Under the pieces are notes generated by a model. It was given only the letters and a program-made list of their open reading frames with translations, did not search any database and was not told the origin of the DNA. Below are positions 25,393 to 57,634 of a stretch of 64,000 nt of DNA, piece after piece (the first letter of the stretch is position 1; the number at the start of each line of letters is the position of its first letter). Source of the DNA: Tilletiopsis washingtonensis (taxonomy: Eukaryota > Basidiomycota > Exobasidiomycetes > Entylomatales); the NCBI RefSeq assembly GCF_003144115.1, contig NW_020312004.1, positions 636,085 through 700,084 on the forward strand. Direction: 5' to 3'. The translations under genes were made by a program, and so were the position numbers.

Positions 25393-34294
<8,902 letters not shown>

Positions 34295-34952: not shown

Positions 34953-36355
34953 CTAGAAGCGGTACTGTCCGCAACCACTGTACAGGTTGTTGGGATCGTT
35001 GTAGTACTGGAAGGACTTGGCGACGAGGTCGACGGCGGAAGGGAAGGCCGAGCCGATGACGTTGTACTGGGCGAGCAGCTGGTGAGAACGGGCGTGCATC
35101 TGCACACGGTCAGGCGATGCTCACCATGTAATCTTTGCCAATGGCGTGTAAGCTGTACGAGCCCAAGTTCGTGCCAACCATGTTGTTCGCCACCCGTCTG
35201 GCGAGGTTCGCGTCGTAGCTGCCCTGGTAGTAGTTGAGGACCGCCTGCTTCTCTCTCGGCGCGTTCGGGGCGCGGAAGACCCATCTGAGACACAGTGAGC
35301 TACGTTCCACTGACTTCCTTCACCTCGCACTTACTCGAGCGGCGCATAGTCGTACGAGACTTCCTGCGTCATGATCTGAAGGAATAATGTGAGAAGGCCG
35401 AGCCGCGGTGATGCGTCAGGCGCGTCGGACGCGTGCTACTCACTCTGTCCGCTGGTCCGTAAAAACCCGGCGACGTGGGGCTTCCCTGGAGACGCATGGT
35501 ATGAGTATCGCATCGCCAGGAAGCTCAAGAGTAATACTTAGGGGATTCCAGTAGCTTAGACCATTCCTGTAGCTCGGCGAGTTGAACCAGGGGCCCTCCT
35601 TGCGCCAGCCCGTGCCCGCGTGGATCCGGTCTCCGAAGTCCTGCTCGGCGCGCGTCAGCTCTGCCGCGCCTCTTCTACCTCCTTTCTCTGCTCTCCGCTC
35701 TCACCTGCCAAGCCGGGAGCAGTTCCTCCTGCCAGGGGCAGTCCTGGCAGCAAGTCGGATCAGAACAGGGCTTTGACACTTCATGGCGGCGTGTCGGCTT
35801 GCAGTCGTGCACTCACGTCGAGGAAGACGCCGTCGAGAGCCAGATCAGGTCTCAAGATACCCCACCGATTGTATTGGGCGATCTCGATCTGGTTCTGCGT
35901 GGCGTTGCGGTTGCCTGCGGCCGGCGTCAGCGCAACGCTCTTGTGGTGGTACGGCGGACCAGGGCGACGCGAGGCAGCGGCGCGGGCAGCAGGCGAAGCG
36001 GGCACGAGACATGGAGCGCGCGGCACCGCTATGAATCAAGCTACTCACCGTACGTCCACTTCGTGCGCGAGTAGCCAACAAGAACGGTGTTCGGGTAGGA
36101 CTTGAGCTTCAAGATGGTGTTTTGCCAATTGATGTCTGGCAGTTCCGTCTTGTTCACGTTGCCCGGACCGCCCGAAGGGTTCACGATGATCTCAAAGTTG
36201 ATCTCGGGGTGAGCGGCGATGGCCTGGTAGAGGTAGTTGAAGTCTGCGCTCGGGTAGCCGAAGAGGGCGACCGGGAGCCACGGCTGGCGCACGGCCTGCG
36301 CGGACGCGCAGACAGCCGCGGCGGCAAGCGCGCCGAGCGCGGCGAAGAAACGCAT
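34953..36355 (-). CDS. Spherulin-4 family (GH135-like) secreted protein, copy A, with a defective splice donor
   Basis: The model has eight exons: 36355-36049, 35914-35817, 35743-35705, 35640-35542, 35485-35444, 35375-35335, 35284-35125, 35078-34953, giving 303 residues. Residues 1-20 are a classical signal peptide (MRFFAALGALAAAAVCASAQ). Spherulin-4 features: WLPVALFGYPSADFNYLYQA, FEIIVNPSGGPG (family: I[IV]NPxSGPG), NTVLVGYSRTKW, LDGVFLD (Asp135), NPG at 180-182, MTQEVSY (Glu200). Against the Sph3/GH135 active site (Asp-Glu pair plus a later Glu), the pair here is Asp135-Asp136, so the Glu is replaced. The 39-base third exon is supported by alignment with copy B at 40772-41836. The donor after exon 4 reads CTAAGT instead of GTAAGT; see the separate entry. 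The gene may therefore be newly inactivated, may use a rare splice, or may reflect a base-call error. It is divergent from the secreted modular gene at 38031. Confidence 0.72.
35486..35541 (-). other. Intron with a lost donor (CTAAGT) in spherulin copy A
   Basis: On the minus strand the exon ends ..TGGAATCCC and the next bases are CTAAGT, one base away from the consensus GTAAGT. The acceptor is ..GTCTCCAG before GGAAGC. Removing exactly these 56 bases keeps phase and rebuilds the conserved Asn-Pro-Gly motif. Retaining them leads to a stop at TGA shortly after (around 35440). The only other nearby GT (four bases on) shifts the frame. Confidence 0.7.
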
Positions 36356-38030
36356 GCTGGAGAGAGGCAAGTGCTGCGGCTTCTTGTGGCAGCGAGGTGC
36401 GTGGAGTCGACGCCGACGAGAATGTGGAGCAGAAAGAAAGGTCGCCTCACGCTCACTTTTGCCGGCGAGAGGCTTTATACCGAGGTGAGAGGAGGCAAGA
36501 GGCGCGCCGCGGCTCGCGCGTCTACGCCCGCCGCGCGCCGCGCGCGCCGCCAGATCCGCTTTCTCTCGCACACCGCGGGCTGCCTCCTTTCTCTGGCACT
36601 CTCGCACGGGCGCTGCAGGCTGCCAGCCACAAGGGCCGTCTGTAGATCAGCACTCAGTCTCAGTGGGACAGGAGGCGGCGTTTGAGCGCTCTCTGTGCCT
36701 TGCAGGGCGAGATCCCTGCGGCGCCGCGCGGGACTGCCCGTCGGAGGCCAGACTCTGCGCCGGCGTGCCGCGCTGCCGAGCATGGCCTGCCCTCGCTGAC
36801 CTTCCAGAGAACCTTTCGCCCGCTCGGTTGCTGCTCTGCGACAGCCCGGCATCGAGCAGATGGCTGCATTTGCATGACGCCTGCCTCCCCGCCTCTGCAG
36901 CAGGCTGCCGAGCATGGCCTCCTCCGACCGATCTCAGACATCCATCGGCGGGTCCGCCCTCTGCCAAGCGGCCTGCCCAGCTTGGCGGCACGTTCGGCGG
37001 GAGATCCAGACCGGCTGTGCCGGTCTCAAACGAGCGGGGACGGGTCGTTCCGAGAGGGCTCGGCACGCCGGCGCCGCCGGGGAGCGTGCCGAAGGGCTCT
37101 GCCTTCGCGCCCGGCCCCGCGCTGCGAGAAGAAGGATCCGCGCGCAAGCCGCTGTCCTGCTGCCCTTCCGCAGGGAATCTGAGCGGCGGCCCGGCGCGCA
37201 CGGCTCGCTTGCCGCTCTCGCAGATCTTCAGCGGCGGCACCGACGCCGGCGCGGCGGTACGTCCGTTGTCTGCGCTGCTGCCGCGCGTGGTCCCAGGCAC
37301 AAGCACAGGCAGCCGGCACGCGCAAGGTTAGGCCGCGCCGGCGCACGCATGAGAGCAGGGTTGCCGCGCAAGATGGCAAGGCGGAGCTGCGCTGCACCAG
37401 CTTCCGCAGGCGCGGCACGAGGCCAGCACGCGGATCTGTTTGGACGCGCAAGAGCAAGCAGACGCAGCCGCTCAGGGCCCGCCGCTGCAGGAGAAGCCGC
37501 CTGAGACAGACGTGCAGCTGCGCGGCAGTCACGCGCGGTGCAGCGCCGGCACAGCACCGAGCACGGGCCCGGCGGCAGTTTCGCCTCGTGCCTCCGCGCC
37601 GTCATGGCTCGCTGCGCGCCGCACGCCGGCTCTTCTCTCCCTCGCCGCGCCTCGCCCGCAGCGCATCGGCCTTCACGCTTGGCACGGTGGTGCGGCGCTT
37701 GGCCCAGCCACACCTGCGCTGCCTGCCGCTGCTCTGCAGCTCGGGACGATCCCGGCGCCGCCGCCATGCCGCGCCCGGCACAGGGGCAGCTCTGTGCCGC
37801 CGCGGGCGTCTCACAAAGTGGCCCAGGGCCCTCGAGAGAAGTTCTGCCTGGGTGCTGCCTCTCGGTACGGCGTGCCTGCGTCTGAGATGCGGACAGGCGG
37901 CCGGCCGAGAGCGCGTGATCTACAGTGCCGACGCCGCGCCGCGGCGGCGCGCGACGCCTTGTCCGCTCAAGTATAGCCCTCTCACAGCGACTCGCATCGA
38001 CGCGCACCTCTCTCCCCCACCCCTCACACC
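36356..38030. other. Gene-free GC-rich island between divergent secreted-protein genes
   Basis: This 1.7 kb region is rich in CTGC/GCAG and short direct repeats. For example, gctgccgagcatggcct occurs near 36772 and again near 36902. Its frames are Arg/Ala/Ser/Cys-rich on both strands and fit no family. It must contain the promoters of spherulin copy A (leftward) and the modular secreted gene (rightward). The last ~40 bases before 38031 are a C/T-rich leader. Its texture resembles that of 44932-48225. Confidence 0.5.
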
Positions 38031-40249
38031 ATGAAGCTGCCGTCCGCCTGCTCCTGGCTGGCCCTGCTCAGCGCGGCGCACGCGGCCATCGCCGCCGTCG
38101 GCCCGCTGGCGCACGACGACCCGCTGCTGAACCGCAGCGCCGTGCACGCGCGCAACGCCGCCTGCGCGACGCAGAACCAGTGCGACGGCCCGCGCATGGC
38201 GCGCCGCCGAGCCAACGCACTCCAGGCACGCTCGGGGCTCGTGAGCCGCGACCAGCGAAACAATCCGGACAATGTCTTTGACAGTGCGCACTGGAACCGC
38301 CTCTCGTACCAGAACCCCAACGGCGGCTCGTGGCAGCAGATCTACGACTGCGTCTTTGCCGGCTACAGCCACCACGTGTCCAGCACCAACGGAGACAGTG
38401 TCACCGTGTATTTCAGCGGCACGGGCTTCAACCTCATCGGCGAGGCGCGCAGCAGCGGCGGCGTGGGCCAGGTGTGGGTCGACGACAAGGTTGTGGCGCT
38501 GTACGACAGCTACGCGCCGTACGGGCGCCCGCAGTACAACCTGCTCACCATCGACGGCCTCTCCGACGGCGGCCACAAGCTCGTGCTGAAGAACAACCTC
38601 ATCAAGGGCGGGCCCAACGGCGTCGGCGGCGGCACCACCATCTCGTTTGACGCGCTCGAGGTGACGCGCACGACCGGCGAGCCGGCGTGGACGGGCATCC
38701 CCATCACGGCCGCCAAGCGCGTCGGCTCGCGCTGGGGCGCCTGGGTCAAGGGCGACATTTCCAGCGCGCTCTGGTCGACGTGGGGCGCGGGCGACTACGC
38801 CCAGTTCACCTTCACGGGCACGGGCTTCCGCGTCTTCACGGCAGGCAAGTCGGACGGCGTGTACGGTGAGCAGCGCGCGACGTACTTCGCACCGACACAC
38901 ACTAACATCGCGCAGCTACGGTGCGCCTCGCGCCCGGCAGCGGCAGCGGCAATGACCCGGCCGTCGGCTACCTCAACTCGTGGATGCCCGACACGCAGCT
39001 CTCGCTCAACAACTTTGCCATGGAGGACCTCTGGCCGCGCACGTACACCGTCTCCGTCGTCAACACGGGCAAGCGGCCCGACGGCAGCGGCGGCTTCCTG
39101 AACATGGACGGCATCCGCTACATCGACCGGTCCAGCACGCGCCAGTACATCGGCGCCGATGACTCCTCCATCGTGACCACCGGCACGTGGACGACGGACA
39201 CGAGCATCTACGGCAACGGCAAGGCGCGCACCACGACGCAGGCCGGCGTGCAGATGACGCTGACGTTCACGGGCACGGGCATCTCGGTCATCGGCGAGCG
39301 CGGCCCGGAGAGCGGCAACTACCGCATCCTCATCGATGGCAACATCATCGTGTGGGACATCAACAACGAGGCCAACACCAAGGCGCAGTGGACGCTCTTC
39401 CAGACGCACAGCCTGCCGCCGGGCCGCCACACGATCACTGTGCGCTCCAACGACGACAGCAACGGCCGCCGCCTGCGCGTCACGCACTTTGTCGTGCGCG
39501 GCGGCAGCTCGGGCAACGTGAGCCCGGGCGGCAGCGTCGTGCCGGTCACGACGACGTCGACCACCTCGAGCTCGACGAGCACGAGCGCGCCCGCCACCAC
39601 CACCACGAGCTCGTCCAGCACCACCACGTCGAGCACCAGCACCAGCACCTCGGCCGCGCCGACGAGCTCCTCGCCAGCCAACGCCCTCATGTTCGAGTTC
39701 ACCGACGCGTCGGGCAAGAAGACGACGGCGAACCTCGGCACGTCGGCGAACCAGTACCGCAAGCAGGCGCTCGGCATCAACAGCAACGCCACCGTCGTGT
39801 CCGTGTCGGGCAGCACAAACGGCACGTACGAGCTGGTGCGCTCCGGCCTGACGTCGGTCATCGGCGCCGAGGCGTACATCTTCGGCAGCTCGATGGGCAA
39901 CTCGACGGACAAGTGCGCCGGCCTCGTCTTTGGCTACGACTCGCCGCGCGGCACGGGCTTCGATGCGAACAGCTACGGCCCGTTCAATGGCAAGCCCTTC
40001 ATCACCAAGGCCTACTCGCTCTCCGCGCCCGCCAACGGCCAGCAGGACGTCGGCCTCACGTGGATCGACCCCAACGGCAGCGCCATCCAGATGAAGTTCA
40101 TCTGGGTCAACGACGACGGCGTGCTCGTCGCCATCCCCGCCTCGACGCCCATCTCGCAGTACCAGGCCAACTGCGCATGGCAGTTTGACTCGAAGACGCC
40201 CTTCTCGTCCAACTCGGTGCGCGCGGCACGCCTGTACCTCCAGCTCTGA
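38031..40249 (+). CDS. Secreted modular protein with repeated galactose-binding-like β-sandwich units
   Basis: Two exons (38031-38865 and 38916-40249; 50-base intron with a CTAAC branch point) give 722 residues. Residues 1-22 are a signal peptide. Three similar units follow, at about 82-215, 216-335 and 340-472. Each carries a core strand of the type V-x-F-[ST]-G-T-G-[FI]-x-[LVF] (VYFSGTGFNLIGE, FTFTGTGFRVFTAGK, LTFTGTGISVIGERG) followed by a V-x-[VI]-D strand (QVWVDDKVVALYD, RILIDGNIIVWD). This resembles carbohydrate-binding jelly-roll modules; assignment to a named CBM family is not possible by eye. Residues ~474-531 are a Ser/Thr linker, probably O-mannosylated. The C-terminal ~190 residues form another globular domain (LMFEFTDASGKK to AARLYLQL) that I do not recognise. 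There is no GPI signal. It lies between two spherulin-4 genes, so a polysaccharide-binding role at the cell surface or in the matrix is plausible, but inferred. Confidence 0.82.
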
Positions 40250-40771
40250 GCGAGCGCGCGCGTCGGTCCCTACCCTCTCTCTTCTTCCCTTCGTCTTCTA
40301 CCCCTTCGCCTCTTTCTTACCCCTTTATTCGGCGCCCTCTCTGTCACTACTAGAACCGGAATTGCAGCGTGCTTGCTGTATGTCCTTGTGTGAGGCGTGG
40401 CAGCTGCGGACAGAAGGCGCGTCCGGCGGCGTCCGAGCCATGCGCGCGTCAGGGCCCGCGCGCGTCCGGCCCGTGCTCCCGCCCCATGGGAGCAGCGTGT
40501 GGCGCGCGTGCATATCAGCAGCCACCTGCTCCCGCCGCCGCCACACCTGCACGTCGCGGCTACACCCTGCTGCTTCACACGATGTGTCTCTGATGCGGCT
40601 TGCTTGCGCAGCAAGACTGAGTGCCGGGGTAACGATTGAAGGGGGGCAAGGCGAATGTTCGGCACGTCTGGCCGTCTATGTGGGATGTGGGGGAGGAGAC
40701 GAGCACCCGAGGGGCCGCGCGAGGATAGCTCCGGGCTACGGCTGCGCGAGCCCGTCGACTGTCGGGTAAAG
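40250..40771. other. Convergent 3' region (modular secreted protein / spherulin copy B)
   Basis: These 522 bases lie between two convergent stop codons. The first ~100 are strongly C/T-rich (3' untranslated region of the plus-strand gene). No gene is seen. Confidence 0.5.
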
Positions 40772-41836
40772 CTAGAGGCAGCGCTCGAATGCGTCGAGCC
40801 ACTCCTCGAAATTGCGTCCAAACGCAGCGTAGATGTCCTCGATCTCCAGCGAGAGAGACGTGAGGAAAAAGGCGCCGACGCGAGCGCGACGCAGCGCAAG
40901 TTCCGACACTGCCTGCGTCGTGCATGGCGTGTCGACGCTGAAGGCCAGATGCTGCGGAATGCTAGAGGCAAAGCCGCCGGGAGCCACAGCTGCGGTCCCA
41001 AGTGGCCCGTCGTGCAGCAGCAGCGCGTACTTGTGCGACGGAATGCTGCGGTGCGAGTACGGCCGGTTGAGGAGACTTCCGGGCCTGGACGAGGAACGGG
41101 TAAGCATGCGCCGGTTGAACCTCTCCGCGCCACGCACATCCACGACTGCACCGTCTGTTCGTGCACGACGATGTGGTCTGCGAACTGGAAGTAATCCTCG
41201 TGGACGTTGCATCCGGGATTGAGCGCAATAAGATCACTTCTTGCCGAGCTGCTCGCCTGCGCAGGCAAGGCCTTCCATGCGTCCCAGCGCAGCGTGCGAG
41301 CAAAGGCTGCGAGCTCGGCGTAGTGCGTCACCGCGCCCTCGTGCCAGGTCGACTCGTCGTAGTAGATGCCGTTGAGCGCGTATTCGGGACCCAAAGATGA
41401 CCAGCTGGCATACTGCCGCACGTCGCGCTTCACGTCGTGGACGCCGCGCTGTGTCCAGACAGTGCGCACGTAGCCCTGCAAAGCGAGGCGTGCAGTGAGC
41501 CATGCAGCTGCAGACAGTCGCGAGCGCGTGCCTGCTCACCAGCAGCTCGACCGCTTGTCCCGGTGCCGCAGCTTGACGCAATAACGGCAGTGCACGCAGG
41601 TAATCCTCATGCGGCGGATTCTCGCCTGGCCCAGAGTTGGGGTTGATGATTATGAGCCAGTCCAGCTGCGGACGCATGCGAATGCTGCCGGTCGCGCGCA
41701 TCCAACGGTCAGCCGGCGGCAGGACACGCCTGCTCTTGCGAGACGCTCACGCATCTAGAATAGGCTGCCATGGCTCACGGCCCTCGCGGAGCTCGGGCCA
41801 GATGAAGAGACAGAACAGCACGCGCGGCCGCAGCAT
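40772..41836 (-). CDS. Spherulin-4 family (GH135-like) protein, copy B
   Basis: Four exons (41836-41751, 41684-41540, 41475-41138, 41084-40772) give 293 residues with 53-66 base introns. Residues 1-13 (MLRPRVLFCLFIW) are a short hydrophobic leader, probably a signal peptide. Family motifs are clear: QLDWLIIINPNSGPGENP, GYVRTVWTQRG, ALNGIYYDESTW with the Asp117-Glu118 pair, LIALNPGCNV (Asn-Pro-Gly at 163-165), and HIVVHEQTVQSW with Glu183. The three acidic residues expected of the GH135 (Sph3-type) active site are all present, unlike copy A, so this copy is the better candidate for an active glycanase. Sph3 of Aspergillus hydrolyses galactosaminogalactan; the substrate here is unknown. The proteins from copies A and B look well diverged outside the motifs, so the duplication is not recent. 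Confidence 0.85.
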
Positions 41837-43425
41837 TGTGCAGTGCTGCGGTAGGGCGAACGCTGGCGAGAGCGTCAAGGGGTGGAGGGCGTGAGGCGAG
41901 CAGAGCAGCTTGGGCCGGCAGCGCAGCAGCGCGCTGCTTCTCGTGCGAGAGGCGCGTGCTCGCTCGGCCCGGCGCCGCGGCCGCGCCGGCGCCGCTCCCT
42001 CCCTCTCCTCCACGCTAGCCGCATCCTCACCAGCGCCCGGACGTATCAGACTTCGCACCTCTGCGAGCCGACGGCCAGCCGAGCCGGCGCCGCAAGCTCT
42101 GTCTCGCTGATCTCTCTGCGCGACGAGCGAAACTGTTTCGCACGCTATCACGGCCTCGATGCTCGTGGGCGGTGCCCTGCCTCGGCACGCAGCGTCATCG
42201 ACCCGCGTGCAAGACCAATACCATGTGGGCCCACTCTTAGCCTGGCTGCGCACGCTGAAACTGCAAACCTTTATGCCTCAGGGCATGCCAGGGGCAGGCA
42301 CGCCCGCGCTCCGCCCAAGGTCAGCGAGACAAGTGTCCGGAGCGCGCGGTGCAGCTCGGAATGGAGCGGAGCGCCGCGCACGCGCCGATGCGGTCTCGCG
42401 CGGCCTGAGGCGGAGCGTGGCCCTGCTGGCCCCTGCGTCGTCCTGCATCGGCGTGTGAGTGCAAGGCGATGATGCTCTCGTGCGGAAACGCCGTTGCAGA
42501 CGAAGGCCTTGTGCTCGTCATGCGGCCCAGAAGACTGACGCGGCGCCGAGAGGGGGGTGAGACATGAGGTGCAGGCGCTGGCGTCGGAGATCTTCTCAAG
42601 GGCGCGCCGCGACGAGGGCGAGAAGCTGCCGGCGTCTGCAGCGCGCCGGCTGCCGAACGCCGCTGCTGTGCTGCGGCGTCTCGACTCTCGCGCAAGGCCC
42701 AAGAATTCCGCAGCGCGGAAGCCTGCAGCGGCACGAGGCATCGGCACCTGCCTCTCTCGCATTGCACGAAGGTCTCGCCGGACACGAGCTAGACCTCAAA
42801 TAACAAACAAAGGAAGCCGAGCAAGAGCCAAGAGAGGACCATGCGTCAGGCGAGACCTGCAGGCCCTGAATCATGCCGAGCCGCTGTGCCGGGCGGATCG
42901 AGAGGGGCACGGCGTGACGCATTCGCGCAGCGTCCGCAGCGCGCAACGCGGCGCGTCTTCTTTGTGCCCCGTCGCCTGCTCGGACAAGGGCCGGCGCGGA
43001 AGCGAGCTCAAACGGACATTGCTCCGTTGCTTTCGCGCGTACTGTGCTCTTATTCCGAGCTTGCGCCGCGTCTCACCGAGGAGACAAGCATGCGCAAGTA
43101 ACTGCGCGAGGTCTCATCCACGAACAAGCACAACGTGCCCGGCACAACGGAGCGAGCATGTCTCGCCTGGCGACCCTAGGAGAGAAAGCACCGTCTTGCC
43201 CTGACCCTTGGCGCCCGAGGCGGCTCCGACTGGGAAACGACGACGCAGCGTTGCTCTTGCTATGCCGGGTTAATTACGGAGATAGATAGTGATACAGGGA
43301 ATAGCGCAGCGTCTAGGTGAGCAAGAGAGTGCAGGAGAGCGAGGATGCAGCAGAGAGGCCGGTGACGAGGAAGATAGCGGAGCCGCCGCCAGGGCAGCGA
43401 TAGGTGGAGGCGAGAGGCCTCTCTT
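41837..43425. other. Intergenic region; no supported gene
   Basis: This 1.6 kb stretch separates the spherulin copy B start from the epimerase stop. It contains the spherulin promoter and the epimerase 3' untranslated DNA (locally A/G-rich with 'gatagatagtgatac' near 43281). Open frames are Arg/Ala-rich and overlap on both strands. Confidence 0.45.
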
Positions 43426-44931
43426 TCAAGAGCAGGCGTGCGTCTGGAGGAAGTGCCACGTGTCGGCGCAGACGTCCTGCAGCGTCTTTGTGGCCTTCCA
43501 GTCGAGCTCCTGCTGCGCCTTGATGGGGTCGGCAATGCTGATGACAACGTCGCCCGGGCGGCGCGCGGCAGCGACGATGGGCAGCGGCAGGCCGGACGCC
43601 TCGCGCATGGCCGAGACCATCTCCATGACGCTGACGCCGGCGCCCGTGCCGAGGTTGAAGATGCGCAGGTCATTGGGCTGCGCGGCCTTGCCCGGCGAGA
43701 CGGGCGCGGAGGCCTCGAAGCGGCTCGACGCAGGCGTGCTCGGCGAAGTGAGCGACGTGCTGTCGGACGACGGCGTGTGCTCGTCGGAGAGCGACGACGT
43801 CGACACGGACTGGCTCAGGAAGTGGCCGTCGTCGGTGGAGGGCGACGACTCGCTCGAGTGGCCGTGCTCCGACGACGCGGGGCTCAGGTCGGCGGGCAGC
43901 GAGCCGAGCGCCTCCTGCAGCGCCTGCATCGGCAGCGAGCTCCCCGGCACGACGGGGTGCCGCTCCGTCGCCTTTGCAATCGCCGCGAGATGGCCGCGGG
44001 CGAGGTCGACGACGTGGATGAAGTCGCGGATGCACGTGCCGTCGGCCGTCTCGTAGTCGGTGCCGTACACCTGCAGCTCGCTCTTGCGCCCGTCGAGGAC
44101 GCGGATGATGCACGGCATGAGGTTGTTCGGCACGTCGAGCGGGTCCTCGCCGATGGCGCCCGAGGCGTGTGCACCGACTGGGTTGAAATACCGAAGAGCG
44201 GTGATGTCCCAAGCGGGGTCTGAGGCGCACACGTCCTGGAGGATGGCCTCGCCCATCCACTTGGTGCGGCCGTACGGGTTGGTGATGCCGGCGCAGCCCT
44301 GCAGGCCCTTGCTGAGGTCGGGCGACGCGGGCGCGGCGGGCGCGTCGGCGCGGTGCCGGCAGAGCGACTCCTGTGCCTGGCCGGCGGTGGTGAGCGAGCC
44401 ATAGACCGTCGCCGAGGAGGAGTAGAGCAGCGTCTTGACGTTGGCGGCGTCCATGGCGTCGAGCACATTGACGAGGCCGGTGATGTTGGTGCGGTAGTAG
44501 CTCAGCGGCTTGCTGATCGACTCGGACACGGCCTTGAGCGCGGCAAAGTGAATGACGCCGCCGATGCGCGAGCGCGCCTGGCCGCGGCAGTAGGGCAGGG
44601 CATAGTGCGCAAAGATGCTCGCCAGGCCGTCCTCGTCGAGGATGTCGAGCTCAAAGAAGTCAAGCCGCGGCGTCGCAGAGGCGTCGCCGTCGCGCGCAGT
44701 GTAGAAGGCAGCGACAATGTCCCGCACCTTGTCGGCGACGCCGGCGTGCGAGTTGGACAGGTTGTCGACGGCCACGACGGGGTAGCCGGCCTGCATCAGC
44801 TCGACGAGCGTGTGCGAGCCGATGAAGCCTGTGCGAGCAGAGAGTGTTCAGCAGCGGTCCACGAGCATGCGCTACTACTCGAGCCACGCACCGAGGCCTC
44901 CGGTGACGAGAATGGTGGGCTTGCTGCTCAT
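43426..44931 (-). CDS. UDP-glucose 4-epimerase (GalE/Uge type) with a Ser-rich insertion
   Basis: Two exons (44931-44892 and 44828-43426) give 480 residues. The enzyme interconverts UDP-glucose and UDP-galactose (some members also UDP-GlcNAc/UDP-GalNAc) with bound NAD. Visible: the Rossmann ILVTGGLGFIGSHTLVELM (residues 7-25, split by the intron inside the glycine motif), VVAVDNLSNS, VIHFAALKAVSES, catalytic YSSSATVYG and Tyr199-Gly-Arg-Thr-Lys203 (Y-x3-K), ALRYFNPVGAH, NLMPCIIRVLDGR, YGTDYETADGTCIRDFIHVVDLA, IFNLGTG and the RRPGDV region. About 95 residues (~305-399), rich in Ser, Pro, Asp and Glu, are inserted between the HVVDLARGHL helix and the LRIFNLGTG strand. The usual length is 340-370. 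No mutarotase domain is attached. Its neighbours suggest it supplies UDP-galacto sugars for an extracellular polymer. Confidence 0.92.
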
Positions 44932-47900: not shown

Positions 47901-48225
47901 CGACGGGCCCACTCTTACCTGTTTCAGTGTTGTGCCTGAGTATCGCGGGAGGAGTTAGAGTGCAAGGGAGAAACCCTGAGTGCTGCGATTGTAGCATCGT
48001 GCATACGCGGTGCTCGCTGCGCACCGGCCTTCGTGCCACCGTCCCGTCCGGACCGTGCCGGCCTGCGGACTGGCCCTGGCCCCTGCCTCCCCTTAAGTAT
48101 CGGACTGCGCCGACGCCGACGCCCCGACGCCCACCATCCTACCGCCTCTACCTAATACCCACCACCCACCCCCCTCCGCCTCGTCCCACTCCGCGACTCG
48201 CTCCGCCTCGCCATTGCTTGCCAGC
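44932..48225. other. 3.3 kb gene-free GC-rich island between divergent epimerase and GT4 genes
   Basis: This is the largest stretch without a recognisable gene in the window. It is made of CTGC/GCAG/GCCG-rich DNA with recurrent short words such as 'gcctcagggccg' (near 46730 and 47205). Long open frames occur on both strands but are uniformly Arg/Ala/Cys/Ser-rich. The right 150 bases are a C/T-rich leader of the GT4 gene. It contains both promoters. Whether it also holds decayed transposon DNA or a long non-coding RNA cannot be told from reading. Confidence 0.5.
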
Positions 48226-51200
48226 ATGGTCGACCTGAGCATCTCGCACGAGGCCGCCGGCGTCATGGCCGAGACGCATGTGCTGCCCTGGGCGCGCATG
48301 ACGAGCCACGCCTGGCAGTTTGTGCTCGCCGGCCTGGCGCTGCTCGCCGCCCTCGTGGGCATCACCTACATTCTCGTGCAGTGCGTCGTTGAGCTGCGGC
48401 AATATCTCCAGCGCCGCCGCGCCGTCGCACGCCCCGGCTCCGTCACCAAGTACATCACCGAGCGCCTCAACGGCATGGCTGCGCTGCTTCAGACGCCCTC
48501 CGCCGACTTCACCACTGCCGCGTCCAAGCTCACGTTTGGCGTGTTCCTCGGCCACTTCTCCGCCATTCCGACGCCCGACGAGCAGAGCATGCTCTCGCGC
48601 TGGAGCGTCCTCGTCCTCGACCCGAGCAAGGAGAATGTGCACTCTGCGCTCGAGCACGCCGACGACACGCTGCAGGCGCGCATTGCGCGCGTCGACTTTG
48701 CCGCGCTCGGCAAGCGCTGCCAGGCGCACAAGCGCCGCTCGGACAAGGACGGCAGCAGCGTGCCCAACGACAAGCTGCGTGCCAACATTGAGGTCCTGCT
48801 CGACTTTGTCGCCGAGCGCGTGTGCAACCGCACGTCGCAGAACCCCGCCGCCCGCTTCAACGGCCTGCTCGTCGCCAACTGGGAGGACTACGTGACGCCG
48901 GGCGCGATGAACGAGCTGATGGACCAGTTCGCCGCGCTCAACGTCAAGGTGTACATTGAGGCGAGCGCGCCGCACTTCATCCGCGAGTTCTCGGCCGGTC
49001 TGACGGTGAGTAGTGCAGCGAGAGGGCGAAGAAGGCGGGCGCGGCGGCCGGGGCGTTGTCCGTGTCCCGAGCGGGGGGTACGCTGCGCTGCCGCGGCGCG
49101 TGTCTCAGGCGTCTCAGGCGGCGCTGCAGGCACGAGGCACGAGGCCACGCGGGTGACGCGCGCCGGCGCAGCGCGCATGAGCAGCGGCGCAGCGGCGCAG
49201 CGCCGCATCCGAGCTGCCGCCGAGCCGCCGGGCTGCTGCCCTGCGCCCGATCTGCTGCTGCGCTCTCTCTTCCCCACCACTCACACCCGTCCCGCCGCGC
49301 AGCTCGCCAGCTCCGGCGGTGTCATCTTCCGCAATGGCTCCATGCTCGAGAACGGCACGCGCCGCGACTTCTTCGACCTCATCCCCGCCAACTATGCGAT
49401 CCGCCTGTGCAGCAAGCAGACGATGCTGCGCTCCGACTTCGTGTTCGCCATGTACGAGGTGTACCTCGACGGCGAGGCCTGGGTGCCCACCAACGCCCAG
49501 CTGATGCGCTCCGCCACGTGGTCCGACTACTTTGGCGCCAAGACGTGGATCGGCTGCCAGTCGGCCCTCACCAACGCTGCGCTGAACCACAAGCTGCTCA
49601 CGCCGCTCAGCGCCTTCGACTGGCTCAAGCAGAAGGAGATCATCAAGGCCCACACGTTCTGGGCGCGCAACGCGCAGGTCATCGTCGACGCCGACAAGCA
49701 GCACAGCCTGCACACGCTCGAGGCCATCGACGACATCTTCCCCGGCCTGTCCGAGGCGCTCGCCCCCGTCGTCAACGGCTCGACGGACGTGACGGCCGCC
49801 GGCGACCCGGAGTCGACCGCACTGGTCAGCTCCAACTCGTTCGACATCGCCCAGACGCTCTACCTCTCTGGCCAGGCGCCCGGCGCGTGGGCCAACCTCG
49901 TCGTCGGCCGCCCGGGCAACCCGCTGAGCGACTCGCCGCGAGGCTATCCGCTCAGCGGCCTCGGCGCCTTCAGTCTCGCCTCGTTCCCGTCGCCCAACGA
50001 GTTCAACGCCGTCGTCGAGACGCAGTCGAAGCTGCGCCAGCACAAGACGCTCACCGCCATCGAGGCCGACGTGCAGCTCAACATTGCCGCCACGCTCGAG
50101 CAGCTCGCGCTCTCAATGGAGCAGGCCAGCCTCGGCCGCGTGTCGTACGTCAACGACAAGTTCCCCGACTACTGGGTGCCGCAGGAGGTCGAGGTTGCCG
50201 CCGTGAGCAACATCGCCGAGCTGCTCGGCAAGGGCAGCGGCCGCACGTCGGCCACGTCGTTTGAGATGCTCGCCTCGTCGCACTCGCCCGCGCAGCACTT
50301 CACATCGATCCGCGTCTACTCGGCCCTCGACACTGGTCTCTGCCCGCCGTGCCCGGCCGACCACCCGACTGGCAACGGCAAGAACCGCTTCAACGGCGTG
50401 TACGAGGTGCAGGGCACGACGCTCAACATCTACGTCTCGCGCCGCACGCAGAACCTCGGTGCCCTCATCCTCCACACGGCGCTCTCGGCGTACGGCATGT
50501 CGCGCGCCTCGTGCTTCAGCGCCGAGCTGCTCTACGACTCGATCCTCGCCGCCGACCAGGCCAAGCTGCCCGAGCTGCCGCTGCGCCTCGAGGCCGACAT
50601 TGCCCAGCTGTCGCCGGCCGAGGCGCTGCGCTCGCTGCAGCACATCACCATGTGCGACGACTGCCGCGACGACGGCCTGACCGAGGCCGTCGGCGAGCGC
50701 CTGCAGTTCTACCTCGTCCAGGCCCCGTCGGCCGCGCGCCTGAAGCAGATGCACGCCGAGGAGTTCCTCAGCGGCCGCATCACGCCCGAGGAGCTCATCC
50801 GCACGCGTCTCAACTGGTTCCTCGCGCAGGGCGCCTCGGCGCTCCCGTCGGAGGAGAAGTGCGTCGAGTACTTCAAGATCGTCGACCGCACCGTCGCGCA
50901 CTTCCAGCGCCACTACGACAAGTTCTCGCAGGAGCGCGTCAGCAAGCTGCTCGTGCACCTGCTCGACACGGAGCGCCCGTGCGTCGACATGGCCTCGGAC
51001 CTCTTCTCGCTCATGCTGCTGTGCGCCATCAAGCGTCTCGCCTTTGAGGAGGTGATGCTCGAGGCCACCGACCGTCTGCCGCTGCTCTCCAACCAGCCCG
51101 ACCAGGCGGCCGTGTACGCCGAGATGTGGATCATGGGCTCCAACTGCGAGATCTACTTCGACTGCACGCCGAAGCGGCTCGGCATCGTGCTCTGGGACTA

Positions 51201-54200
51201 CTACCGCGGCTACCTGCACGCCAAGAAGCCGGCGCGCGAGGCATACAACGGCATCGACCTCTTCACTGCCTACCCCTCAGCCAAGACGGACGTCGACCAG
51301 GCGGCCATGAAGGCGCGCAGCCAGGAGGACAGCAAGAAGTTCCGCGCCATTGCGTACTTTGGCGTCTTTGCCATCCCGGCGCTGATCGATGTCATGATGC
51401 TCACGTTCCACGGCCGCGGCCTGTACCTGGTGAGTGCGCCGCATTTGGCCACACATTGCCACCTGCTGACACTGCGCAGTCTGTCTCGATGAGCGCCGTC
51501 GAGTCGCGCAGCGCCACGCTCGCCCTCGTCATCTCGCTCGTGATCTGCGGCCCCTTCACCAACTGGATCGGCGCCGGCGGCTCGTACTACAAGTACGCCA
51601 TGACGCACGCCGTCATGGTCAACTTCGTCGCCAACAAGGTCACGGCCGCCATGCTCGTCGCCGCGTTCGGCTCGGTCCTCGGCTTCGTCTTCTTCACGGC
51701 CTTCGTCGGCCCGTACGCCGGCCTCATCTTCTTCTGCTACTTCATGCTGCTCTCGACGTACTTCACGTGCATGGGCGCGCTCTGCGTGCTGCACTGGGGC
51801 GACCACCCGCTGCCGTCGGGCCGCACGGCCGTCGGCAAGTGCCTCATGCTGCTGCTCGTCTCGCCCATCGTCACGACGTACGTGCACGGCTGGGACATTG
51901 CCGTGTACCTGCCGATGCTCGCCATCTTCACGGTGACGCTCTACATCACGACGTTCCGCCTGCTGGCGACATGGACGAACTGGCTGGCCGACTGCCCGAC
52001 GCCCAAGGACGACGACATCCTCGACTGGTACGCGCGCTCCTTCGGCGACGGCACGCACGAGAGCGTCTTTGCCGGCCTCACGGCGCCCGGCGCGCTCGAG
52101 CGTGCGCGCCTCGAGTTCTCGGCGCAGGTGACGCGCGAGCGCCACCGCCGCTTCTGGCAGAAGCCGACGCAGGACCCCTTCGTGGCCGAGATTGCCGCCA
52201 AGCAGCACCTCACGTCGGCGATCCTCAAGTGGTACTCGGGCCACTTCCACGCGTTCATCCCGCTGCCCTACTCGTCCACCTGGGCCCTGCAGAGCAAGGT
52301 CGCGCTCGACACGCTGCGCAGCTTCGACAAGGGCCTCGCGCCGCACTCGGCCTTCATCCTCTGGCGCCACTGCTCGCCCGAGGTCGCCTTCGGCGTCATC
52401 TACTTCGTCCTCGCGCTGCTCGACCGCTGGATCGAGCTCATCTGCGGCGGCCAGATCATCGGCCTCGTGCTGCTCACCAACGGCACGACGCGCATCGGCA
52501 TCTCGCTCGGCCTCATCTACTACCTCATGGGCGCCGTCGTGCTCGACATCCGCTGCGCACCGCTGTACATCCTCGCCCAGAAGACGTCGAGCGCGCCGCT
52601 GCGCTCGCTCACGCAGCTGCGCGAGGCCTCGACGCTCGACGCCCGCGCGCTGCGCAAGATGTACTGGACCGAGCTCGGCGCCGCGTCGGCGATGATGAGC
52701 CTGGCGTTCGCCTTCTGCGCGCTCCTCGTCTGGCTCTTCGTCGACAGCGCCGAGGGCTTTGCGATCTTCTGCGCCTACGTCGCCGGCTACACGGGCCTCA
52801 TGTGGTTCCAGTACAACCGCGTCTTTGCCGGCAACAACGCCATGAAGCCGGTGCTCACGGGCGTCGCTCTCGGCCTCGCCTTCGGCCTGCCGATCCGCAT
52901 TTGCCTGCCCGACTTCGCCTTTGGCCCGGTTATTGCCCTCAACGTCGCCACCTGGTCCGCCAGCCTGCTCTCGCTTGCGCCCTGCGGCCTGTTCAGCCTC
53001 TCGCGCGCCGACCCCGAGCGCGAGTACGACGAGCTCAGCACCAAGGACACGTCGCGCAGCAAGTCGCAGCGCTTCGTGCACTCGCAGGACGCCATCGGCC
53101 TCACGCGCCGCCTGGACGACAAGCAGAAGCAGGCGCTGCTGCGCTCCATCGAGGAGCTGCAGCCGATCCCGTCGAACAAGTTCTCGCTGCGCTGGGACCC
53201 CTCGGGAGACGATGCGCTGTCCAGCGCTGTGCGCCAGGTCCTCGAGGAGGCCTGCGCCGGCGCCAAGGCCGACGAGCTCGCCGCGGCCTTCCCGACTGGC
53301 GAGCGCATGCTCAACGACACGCTCCGCCGCTGGCAGGAGGGCCGCACGGAGGTCAAGCTGGTTAGCGAGAAGCACTTCGACCCGCGCGTCCGCGCGCTGA
53401 GCTACAGCCCCGACGACACGGCGCTCACCGTCTACATATCGATGCCCAAGGACTTCATGATCGGCACGCGCACGGCGCTGCCCTTCTACGCGCGCTGCAT
53501 TGCCGAGGCCGTCGTGCACGAGACGTTCGAGGTGCTGTTCAACTTCTCGCACACGGATGCCGTCCTTGCCGAGCTGCTCGTGTCGCCGCGTGCCACGCTC
53601 GAGGTGCCCTCGCGCGTCTTCGCCCAGCTCTTCTCCAAGACGGGCGCCGACCCGCGCGACATCGTTGCCAAGCGCGACACGGAGCTCTCGCGCCACCTCG
53701 CCCTCGGCCTGAACCCCGACGAGTGCTGGACGGAGCTGCCGGAGAACACGCGCAAGCACATTGTCAAGCGCTTTACGCGCACGCTGGACGACGATGCAGC
53801 TGTTGAGGACGAGGCACACCAGCGCTGGATCAAGGACACCTTCTCGCTCGCCAGCCAGACGGCGCCGTCGGTGTTCGTCGCCCGCCGCAACCTGCACGCG
53901 CGCCTGGTGCTGCTCATCGACGAGGCCGTCATCCGCTCCAACGTGCTCTCCGCGCCCAAGCAGTCCAACGAGGGCGTGCAGGAGGGCCAGGACGAGGACG
54001 CCGAGGAGAAGGTCGACGAGTACCGCATGTCCTTCGAGCCGCCCAAGGCCCACCACTCGGTCTTCCGCCGCGTCTACAACTACACGCTCAGCAAGGCCGG
54101 CACGATTGTCAAGCTCTTCTTCATCTGCCTCTGCGGCGACAAGGACTTCCAGCGCGAGCTGCTCTTCGCCATGCGCCACACGCGCCTGCGCCACGTCGTC

Positions 54201-57200
54201 GTGCCCGTGTGCGTGCGCGTGTGGATGGCCGCGCGCCTCGCCAACGTCTTCGTCACGGACCTCTTCCTCTTCCAGGGCCGCCCGCACCTGCGCACGCTCG
54301 CCAAGACGGCCAAGAACGGCTACAAGACGACGCTGCGCGGCAACCGCGTGCAGGTGCAGCACCCCACGGAGCCCGTCACTGCCTTTGTCCAGCCGCCGCC
54401 GCCGCCGAGCAACAGCAGCTCGGAGAAGCTCAACGAGAAGACGGCGCCCGTCGCGGCTGCCTCGACGCTGCGCGTCTACGACGGCCGCCTGGACAAGGAG
54501 CCCGAGGGCAACACGCTGCTGCGCGCCATCTGCTACTACGACGACGAGCAGCGCCTGCTGCGCCGCGAGACGTACAAGCACGCCCAGCTGCAGGACACGT
54601 TCGAGTACAACTACAAGAACAAGGACCGGACGCCCGCGGTGCGCAAGCGCCTCACGGCCGACGGCGGCGACATGGCGCTGTACGACAAGCACGGGCGCAT
54701 CTCGGGCGAGACGCGCACGCTCAACGGCCGCAACTACGCCTGCAAGCTGCACTACCACCGCAAGCGCGGCGGCGCCAAGGAGGGCGTCATCCGCGTCGAG
54801 TACGCGACGATCGACGACAACGAGTTCGAGGGCCTGGAGCACGACTCGTTTGAGGTGTACTACAGCAACCCGCCGACGCGCAAGGCCGAGGACCTGACGC
54901 TGTGGGTGCCGCAGCGCCACATCACGCGCCTCATCACGCCGTACATGGGCCGCAAGCGCGAGACGATCTGGACCTACGACCACAAGAGCCACCCGGTCAT
55001 CTCGACGCAGTGCGAGGGCCACCCCGTGCCCAACCCGGACCTGGCCGTCAACGACACGTACGGCGTGCACAAGCCGCCGACGGGCTTCGCCTTCAAGGCC
55101 GAGGACCCGGCGTTCGGCCTCTCGCTGCCCGGGCAGGGCGGCTTCTTCGGCAAGGTCAAGCGTGCCTTTGCGCCCACGTCGCGCACCTCGCGCTTCACCA
55201 CCTGGAAGGCGCGCGAGACGATCTGGCGCGGCTGGAAGAACTCGAGCAACGTCGACGGCGTCGCGGCCATGTACCTCGACGAGCAGGTGCTGCGCGGCGA
55301 GCCGCTGCTGCGGCCCTACTGGCACGCCCGCGACCGCGGCAACTTCCGCGCGGCCATCAAATACCTCAAGAAGCACGCCGAGGCCATCGAGGGTGCCATC
55401 GGCATGGCGCCCGAGGTCTCGGGCTGGACGATTCTCGCGACGAAGATGTCTGACCTCTTCGCCATGGGCGGCTCCTCCAACATGGTCCTCAACACGCGCA
55501 CCGCCGACGACCCCTTCGCGGGCCCCGAGGAGCAGATGCACGTGCTTGCCACCGACACCGGCACCTGGCCCACCGAGGGCGGCGGTGTCTCGTGCTGCCG
55601 CCGCGACGTCGTCGACAACCTGAAGAAGATCCGCTGGCACATCGTCGCCGAGGTGGCCAACGACCTCGGCATGCCGCGCTTCCAGATCGAGAACCAGGTC
55701 GCCTCCGTCAAGCTGCTCGCGCAGTGGGGCCTCGACTTCCTCACGCCGCACCACGGCATCCTGCAGAACATCCTCGACGGCCAGGTCGACGAGCGGATCC
55801 AGGGCGTCTCGTGAGTGGATTGAGCTGTCTAGCAGAGCCAGTGACTGACCCTTCTCCCAGCGACGCCGAGATCAAGCGCGACTTCATCCCGCTGCTGCGC
55901 ACCATCGTCATGGGCACGCGCACGCGCAAGTTCAGCAAGCAGGACATCAAGAACCTCACGCAGGCGCTGCTCGACCTCAACTCGTACTTCGAGACGCGCG
56001 ACTGGAACCGCGTGTGGCGCTCGGACCCCGTCAAGAAGGCCTTCCGCCGCTTCTGGCTCGACAACAGCGCCGAGCGCATCAGCTCGACGGAGGACGCGCT
56101 CGACATTGAGCTGCCGACGATTGGCAACCTCGACGACACGCTCGACCTCTACTCGCGCTACCTGTTCATCTTCGCGCTGCCCGTGCCCGCCGTGTGCCCG
56201 CCCGTGTTCCAGGCGACGCACCACTCGATCGGCGCGCTGTACGGCATCCTGTGCAAGATCAAGCGCAACTGCTCGTTCCAGGTGTGGGACCACTCGATCA
56301 TCTGGCGCGAGTGCAACACGTTCCTCAGCGCCTCGCAGTGCTCGCACCCGCCGTTTGTGCAGAACGCGCTGCTCGGCATCATGCGCATGGCCGCCGTGCT
56401 CAACCTGCACCACTGCGACGTCGTGCTGCCGTGCACCGACCTCTTCAACCCCGAGTGGGAGGTCGAGCTCGGCACCGAGATGGGCGTGCTCGAGGCGCGC
56501 GAGACGTTTGCGCGCAAGATCGACGCCGTCGTCAACGGCATCTGCAACATGGACTCCTTCGAGCCCGTGGAGAAGGTGCTCACCGAGAAGCCGACGGTGA
56601 CGATGCTGTCGCACGTGCAGTACGTCAAGGACATCAAGACGGCGCTGCTCGCCGCCGACATCATCGTCAACGAGTGGGGCTTCAGCGACTACCGCCTGCA
56701 CATCTACGGCGGCCTCGACCGCATGCCGTCGTACACCGTCGAGTGCCAGGAGCTGCTGGCGTCCAAGGGCCTGCGCGGCTTCGTCGAGTTCAAGGGCTAC
56801 GGCAACCCAAAGAAGGTGCTCGCCGACACGTGGCTCTTCCTCAACTCGAGCATCAGCGAGGGCCTGCCGCTGGCCATCGGCGAGGCGGCGCTGACGGGCG
56901 CGCCCATTGTGTGCACCGACGTCGGCGCCACGGCGCTCGTGCTGCAGGACATCGACGACCCCTCGAAGCTCTACGGCGAGGTCGTGAACCCGAACCGCGC
57001 GCGCGACCTCGCCCGCGCCCAGATCAACGTGCTCGGCGTCATGGGCCAGTGGGCCGACTACGCCGAGGTCGAGGGCGAGGATCCGTGGACGGGCGGCCTG
57101 TGCGACCACCCGACGATCGAGCAGGTCAACGAGGTGCAGGCGCGCATGTACACGCAGTCGGAGAACCGCCGCCGCCTTGGCCTCAACATGCGCACGACGG

Positions 57201-57634
57201 TGCAGAAGAAGTTCGACGGCGACCGCTACTTGCGCGAGCACGAGCAGATGCTCTGGGCGGGCAAGGAGCTCGCCGACGGGCGCCGGCGCATGTACGCCGG
57301 CACGTCGGAGGACGACCTCGTCGTCAACTACAAGACGCTCGAGAACATGTTCCGCCGCCCCACGATGCTCCAGAGCGTCTCGGGCTTCTCGGCCTTCAGC
57401 AGCAGCGGCGGCACGTCGCGCACCACCTCGACGCACAACCTCTCCTCCATCGGCGGCCACTCGGGCCCCTACTTTGGCCCCAACGGCTCGTACCCGACGT
57501 TCGGCGAGTCGTCCGACGGCCACGGCACGTGGGCCGGCGGCTCGTCGACGGGCCACGGCACGCCCAACTGGATCCAGTCCAACGCCGGCAGCACGACGTC
57601 GTCGCGCCGCGGCTCCATCTCTGGCGGCTTCTAG
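48226..57634 (+). CDS. Giant polytopic membrane glycosyltransferase with C-terminal GT4 domain (Gtb3-like)
   Basis: Four exons (48226-49005, 49303-51429, 51480-55810, 55861-57634) give 3,003 residues. One membrane span lies near residues 27-50 (FVLAGLALLAALVGITYILV). A large soluble region follows to ~950. A block of roughly 10-13 membrane spans lies at about 950-1490 (for example LVISLVICGPF, AMLVAAFGSVLGFVFFTAFV, LIFFCYFMLL, GVIYFVLALLD, LIYYLMGAVVLDI, SLAFAFCALLVWLFV). A long cytosolic part comes next. The GT4 (GT-B, retaining) domain lies near ~2340-2850: RWHIVAEVANDLGMPRF, YVKDIKTALLAADIIVNEWG, RLHIYGGLDRMPSYTVEC, FKGYGNPKKVLADTWLFLNS, and the E-x7-E motif EGLPLAIGE at Glu2746 and Glu2754, then TDVGATALVL. 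The last ~100 residues are Ser/Gly/Thr-rich. The architecture matches the large fungal GT4 membrane proteins typified by Gtb3 of the galactosaminogalactan cluster; the GT4 part also recalls bacterial PelF. Polymerisation plus export is inferred. The first intron is 297 bases, free of stops and in frame, so its retention would add 99 residues. Confidence 0.88.

Follow-up and report, generated by a model that had tools for sequence, protein, structure and literature searches.

A probable galactosaminogalactan-type exopolysaccharide locus, with no deacetylase gene seen nearby, in the basidiomycete Tilletiopsis washingtonensis

A 64-kb stretch of the Tilletiopsis washingtonensis genome (contig NW_020312004.1, positions 636,085 to 700,084; here called the window) carries five genes, modelled between 34.9 and 57.7 kb, that probably form a galactosaminogalactan (GAG)-type exopolysaccharide locus. 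On our best reading, this locus is reduced to precursor supply, synthesis and export of the chain, and trimming by glycoside hydrolases of family GH135. The likeness to a GAG cluster, which had been proposed from the DNA alone, holds in three respects: a giant membrane protein bears a PelF-type domain of glycosyltransferase family GT4, spherulin-4 genes of family GH135 are present, and a GalE-type epimerase has a small gatekeeper residue. The five genes are:

34953..36355, minus: GH135/spherulin-4 gene A (ATG at 36355, stop at 34953; PF12138, PDB 5c5g/5d6t)
38031..40249, plus: modular protein, 722 residues (exons 38031-38865 and 38916-40249; CE2_N match)
40772..41836 (about), minus: GH135/spherulin-4 gene B (PF12138 and 5c5g; 3' end approximate)
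43426..44931, minus: uridine diphosphate (UDP)-sugar 4-epimerase, GalE/Uge3-like, 480 residues (exons 44931-44892 and 44828-43426; TIGR01179)
48226..57634, plus: putative giant polytopic GT4 synthase, 3,003 residues (four exons; gene model, hydropathy and PelF model NF038011)

Gene A and the modular gene form a divergent pair, gene B lies on the minus strand, and the epimerase and giant genes diverge from each other across 3.3 kb. Codon-usage scoring between 34.9 and 57.7 kb gave no segment above 25 bits outside the five genes, in keeping with the original prediction that no other recognisable gene lies among them.

A giant protein with a PelF-type glycosyltransferase domain

The predicted length of the giant, 3,003 residues, proved exact, as did its description as a polytopic, GT4-bearing protein. 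The spliced model joins exons 48226-49005, 49303-51429, 51480-55810 and 55861-57634 across introns with GT-AG ends, and hydropathy and profile searches divide its product as follows:

From residue 1: N-terminal hydrophobic segment
Residues 60-940: unknown
Residues 942-1445: transmembrane block
Residues 1480-2300: unknown
Residues 2330-2804: PelF-type GT4 domain, then a low-complexity tail

Besides the N-terminal segment and the block at 942-1445, hydropathy shows a doubtful segment at residue 1875. Two ways of counting give 12 or 13 hydrophobic segments in all, or 11 if the doubtful one is dropped.

The C-terminal domain is kin to bacterial PelF. Pfam recognises a glycosyl transferase group 1 domain in exon 4, and the top NCBIfam model is PelF itself (NF038011; 74.1 bits, 1.2e-20, against 36.1 bits and 3.7e-9 for the runner-up); since this score lies under the curated cut-off of 100, we treat the domain as a PelF relative and do not file it as PelF. 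By blastp, residues 2330-2789 match residues 10-431 of a 485-residue Deinococcus PelF at 5.9e-18, and hhalign pairs the segment with an alignment of bacterial PelF proteins at 99.1% (6.8e-19). Of 39 columns invariant among nine bacterial PelF sequences, 26 are kept, including His2557, Lys2669 and the E-X7-E pair Glu2746 and Glu2754. The same kinship appears when the giant is used as a query. Plasmids gave 45 matching records by tblastn; among the 30 matches listed, 18 are annotated as pelF and the majority of the remainder have no annotation at the matched place. All nine Streptomyces genomes searched with the GT4 domain gave a match at E <= 0.001, and in seven of them the best match, by coordinates, is the PelF of an operon.

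Several results weigh against our reading, beginning with the shortfall from the PelF cut-off. The other 13 invariant columns are changed, and two of the changes, Arg to His2664 and His to Gln2530, look important; the roles of these two residues, as of the conserved ones named above, are those we presume from general knowledge of GT4 enzymes. In two of the nine Streptomyces genomes (G007 and G009) the best match falls outside the PelF operon. A GT4 tree does not place the fungal sequence, which sits on an end branch of 3.27, joined to another long branch with support 57/92. No match was found for the rest of the giant: Pfam found nothing in the open reading frames (ORFs) holding exons 1-3, a plasmid search with exon 3 found no homologue, nor did 149 Actinomycetota genomes contain one of exon 2 or exon 3 in a search made without a positive control, and viral contigs gave none for exons 2 and 3, or for exon 4. 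Finally, the idea that the giant is a fusion of PelD, PelE or PelG with PelF found no support when seven segments were compared by hhalign with alignments of bacterial PelF, PelD, PelE, PelG, operon membrane proteins, GH135, GH114 and CE18, because only PelF matched. Some ORFs in these alignments extended too far upstream, and cleaner membrane alignments also yielded nothing. A control, operon membrane proteins against PelG, was itself negative, so the fusion is not disproved and the PelG test is weak.

An internal duplication of the giant was also considered and rejected (score 42, against a maximum of 56 in 300 shuffles). AlphaFold2 on its N-terminus, for which a TIM barrel had been guessed, was uninformative, with a mean predicted local distance difference test (pLDDT) score of 32.9 from a single sequence that included the in-frame intron 1.

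Epimerase, spherulin-4 and jelly-roll proteins

The GalE-type epimerase of the original prediction is present as a full-length model of 480 residues that matches TIGR01179 at 8.2e-91, with the motifs TGGLGFIG and YGRTK intact. In an alignment with human GALE, the Ser of GDVVISIA falls under the Cys of GDVAACYA, which we take to be Cys307, at the gatekeeper position. A small residue there admits N-acetyl sugars, and E. coli has Tyr299 in its place. Thus, the Ser fits an enzyme that would interconvert both UDP-galactose (UDP-Gal) and UDP-N-acetylgalactosamine (UDP-GalNAc) with their epimers. The galE gene adjoining pel genes in Paraburkholderia (L003) has Cys at this position. The fungal enzyme also has a Ser-rich insert, roughly 80 residues long, ahead of its C-terminal segment; it does not occur in the two bacterial sequences aligned.

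UDP-Gal would come from the same epimerase if the PelF-like synthase made some other galactose-based polymer, such as a galactan, served by the GH135 genes and the epimerase, and the notable substitutions within the PelF motifs of the giant are compatible with that. Yet the small gatekeeper residue suits the use of N-acetylglucosamine and N-acetylgalactosamine (GalNAc). In addition, the specificity reported for GH135, Sph3 included, is for acetylated GAG, and Sph3 is thought to work beside Gtb3 (PMC12054363). We hold such another galactose polymer to be improbable.

The sole significant solved relatives of both GH135 genes are the spherulin-4 entries 5c5g and 5d6t, of which 5c5g is Sph3 of Aspergillus clavatus (PMC12054363). 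Gene B matches PF12138 in two ORFs (8.8e-20, 71.7 bits, and 2.2e-7, 31.1 bits; gathering cut-off 30.2) and 5c5g at 3.2e-6. It retains the D-E...E set of Sph3, with YYDE under FFDE and VVHE under VVFE. We take these D-E and Glu residues to be catalytic. The 3'-most ORF of gene B, 40772-41233, drew no match from Pfam, and its place in the model was judged by eye alone. Gene A matches the family as well (PF12138 at 2.8e-25 and 89.7 bits for the spliced 5' part, above the same cut-off; 1.3e-15 to 5c5g/5d6t). Its N-terminus resembles a signal peptide and the region of its second catalytic Glu reads MTQE, both judged by eye. For one gene A intron, the few ends tried gave no GT-AG pair that preserves the frame, and the gene may be diverged, mis-sequenced at the intron or decaying. 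Both had been predicted to be secreted GH135-like proteins; the family assignment stands for the two of them and a signal-like start for gene A, while the modelled piece of gene B has no signal peptide. A short hydrophobic minus-strand ORF, MVLSWLLLGFLCLLFEV, lies upstream of gene B at 42842 and might be an upstream exon of that gene, a separate one coding for a signal anchor.

The active-site motif of gene A counts against our reading: where Sph3 has D-E, gene A has D-D (LDD aligned under FDE), so the acid pair is altered, albeit conservatively. Such a substitution would also fit the five genes being chance neighbours, that is, an exopolysaccharide synthase lying by unrelated secreted proteins, with the GH135 proteins directed at polymers of other microbes. 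The regions upstream of the genes do not decide the matter. Some 9-mers, 24 of them, occur in at least three of the five regions, against a mean of 6.9 in Markov controls (none of 60 as high), as do six 10-mers, against 0.8 (1/60 as high); 8-mers in at least four regions and 7-mers in all five were each equalled by 8 of 60 controls. The excess may be explained by G+C-rich repeats, and motif sharing is thus ambiguous. What argues against chance is that an epimerase, a GH135 protein and a giant GT4 protein are the core grouping of published clusters, and that the recognisable genes outside the locus are by Pfam housekeeping or general (ATR kinase, YEATS, MRP-S25, L7Ae, AMP-binding and oxidoreductase). 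We consider chance assembly very unlikely.

The modular protein has the hydrophobic, secretion-signal-like N-terminus that had been predicted, followed by three jelly-roll-like units with an FxGTG motif. Its three units had been proposed to bind sugars, a proposal that fares unevenly. Unit 3 matches CE2_N (PF17996; 1e-6 and 2.6e-7 in two scans, the latter with 31.1 bits, cut-off 27.9). Units 1 and 2 gave no CE2_N hit; unit 1 is nevertheless homologous to unit 3 (score 80, none of 500 shuffles as high), whereas unit 2 is marginal (1/500 shuffles as high against unit 1, 21/500 against unit 3). Sugar binding itself is a guess from the fold family. A linker with 77% Ser and Thr leads to a C-terminal domain without a Pfam match above cut-off, on which AlphaFold2 was uninformative (mean pLDDT 37.2).

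Deacetylase and GH114 genes here and in related clusters

In the parts of the window that were scanned, the giant polytopic GT4 protein and a GH135 protein with the D-E...E set (gene B) stand without two usual companions. Pfam found neither the deacetylase Agd3 (CE18, PF25115; CBM87, PF25116) nor the GH114 enzyme Ega3 (PF03537) in the cluster ORFs or in 36 flanking ORFs and coding-like segments, some of them overlapping; about five codon-bias segments, all but one short, were left out. This agrees with the predicted local lack of both enzymes, with the proviso that Pfam rates a Streptomyces relative of Agd3 at only 0.022, so that a highly diverged deacetylase might escape it. Bacterial GH135, GH114 and CE18 profiles gave no hit in any of the six reading frames of the window; because they also missed the true GH135 genes, that test is uninformative and Pfam was used instead. 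Among the flanking genes, one for an ATR-type checkpoint kinase adjoins the cluster (26244-31629, minus), and AMP-binding, L7Ae, oxidoreductase, MRP-S25, YEATS and DUF3712 genes lie farther up.

The GAG cluster of Aspergillus fumigatus (uge3, sph3, ega3, agd3, gtb3) likewise groups an epimerase, a GH135 gene and a membrane GT4 gene. It differs in its agd3 and ega3, and the present locus has two GH135 genes and the extra jelly-roll protein. VdGtb, the GAG synthase of Verticillium dahliae, is a protein of 2,856 residues and 11 transmembrane segments whose knockout shows that it is needed for GAG; by this description it resembles the giant in size and membrane count, and it clusters with VdUge and VdSph (PMC13245733). 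The V. dahliae cluster is that of an ascomycete, however, and retains VdAgd and VdEga. According to the same paper, proteins from Ascomycetes and from Basidiomycetes lie close to VdGtb; relatives of the synthase in basidiomycetes have thus been published before. Within the Basidiomycota, a GAG-type cluster is described from Trichosporon asahii, but it includes the deacetylase and is interpreted as having been acquired recently from Sordariomycetes (PMC4817252). In that survey (Lee 2016), which required the deacetylase for selection, the cluster was found in 28 species among more than 250 genomes, T. asahii being the single basidiomycete. For Ustilaginomycotina, none of the titles and abstract openings listed in searches of a largely open-access literature reported a GAG-type cluster.

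These comparisons bear on a simpler account, in which the pathway is an ordinary, full one that makes the usual partly deacetylated, cationic GAG, the deacetylase and GH114 genes lying elsewhere in the genome. All core functions are at the locus, the window covers just 64 kb, and gene order and orientation vary among species (PMC8224951). But agd3 and ega3 lie inside the fungal clusters described in four papers (PMC4817252, PMC8224951, PMC11356417, PMC13245733), and a cluster with the deacetylase is known from one basidiomycete only (PMC4817252). On balance we find scattered genes unlikely, though the least unlikely of the alternatives.

Bacteria offer a further comparison. Plasmids from four genera, Deinococcus, Streptomyces, Kocuria and Thermus, have PelF next to a protein in which 6 to 11 hydrophobic segments were counted, and also code for GH114 and a CE18/CBM87-like protein. 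Spherulin-4 is additionally present in Streptomyces and Kocuria, and epimerase-family proteins for nucleoside diphosphate (NDP) sugars in Deinococcus and Streptomyces. The CE18/CBM87-like proteins of the four genera are homologous to each other, the Deinococcus one matching the Pfam Agd3 domains at 9.6e-17 and 5.8e-16. By tblastn, all six Streptomyces parts lie within the locus in 53 of 80 Streptomyces loci, some of the others sitting on short contigs. Such operons, including spherulin-4 in Actinobacteria, are described by Bamford 2020, which supports transfer from bacteria (PMC7229062); they are thus not new, yet they support a functional linkage of PelF-type GT4 with GH135. The bacterial Agd3-type operons (PMC7229062; L001, L004-L006 and the Streptomyces loci) share with the fungal locus a PelF-type GT4 and a polytopic protein, and some also share spherulin-4 and an NDP-sugar epimerase-family protein. 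They differ in encoding the GT4 and the membrane protein separately, in having CE18 and GH114, and, in Streptomyces, in an epimerase-family protein that is no GalE in the strict sense. Bacterial Pel operons (PelD-G) are linked to the giant by PelF homology but differ in their PelD, PelE and PelG, none of which hhalign could recognise in the giant (a weak test for PelG).

Two side observations concern these bacteria. In Kocuria rosea plasmid NZ_CP126484.1 (L005, 2986-12054), typed as mobilizable, genes for a CE18-like protein, PelF, a membrane protein, spherulin-4 and GH114 are flanked by inverted transposase copies, both WP_284563886.1, and could be a composite transposon with a GAG-like pathway. 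In Actinomycetota, L103-L106 encode long PelF-like proteins (682-770 residues), adjoined in L104-L106 by proteins of 534-727 residues with 11-13 hydrophobic segments. The fungal GT4 matches the PelF of L103 (3.9e-19), L105 (5.6e-18) and L106 (9.6e-16) better than it matches Streptomyces PelF.

A proposed deacetylase-free pathway

To bring these elements together, we propose that the epimerase supplies UDP-Gal and UDP-GalNAc, from which the giant would polymerise both sugars on the cytosolic side by its C-terminal PelF-type domain. The chain would then be extruded through the membrane block of the giant itself, a one-chain synthase-exporter as proposed for Gtb3. Outside the cell, one or both GH135 proteins would cut the emerging N-acetylated chain, and attachment to the polymer or the wall may fall to the jelly-roll protein. 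The product is predicted to be an N-acetylated, uncharged Gal/GalNAc polymer because no Agd3 (CE18) or Ega3 (GH114) gene is seen nearby; the earlier suggestion that it stays acetylated or is a different glycan follows only if agd3 and ega3 are absent genome-wide. More tentatively, and at less than even odds in our judgement, we envision a lineage, probably basidiomycete, that runs a deacetylase-free GAG-type pathway, in which two diverged GH135 enzymes would trim a permanently N-acetylated, uncharged polymer and a jelly-roll protein dedicated to the matrix, not charge, would hold it.

Deacetylation is what gives GAG its adhesiveness in Aspergillus and Neurospora (PMC4817252, PMC11356417). In Neurospora, chitin, alumina and similar particles were bound by hyphae of a mutant in the deacetylase (PMC11356417). 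A natural deacetylase-free pathway, if true, would reveal the purpose of the acetylated polymer. The single-basidiomycete picture, drawn from a survey in which the deacetylase was a requirement (PMC4817252), would be widened as well, and such a reduced gene set would help to explain how polymerisation and export of a chain are combined in one protein.

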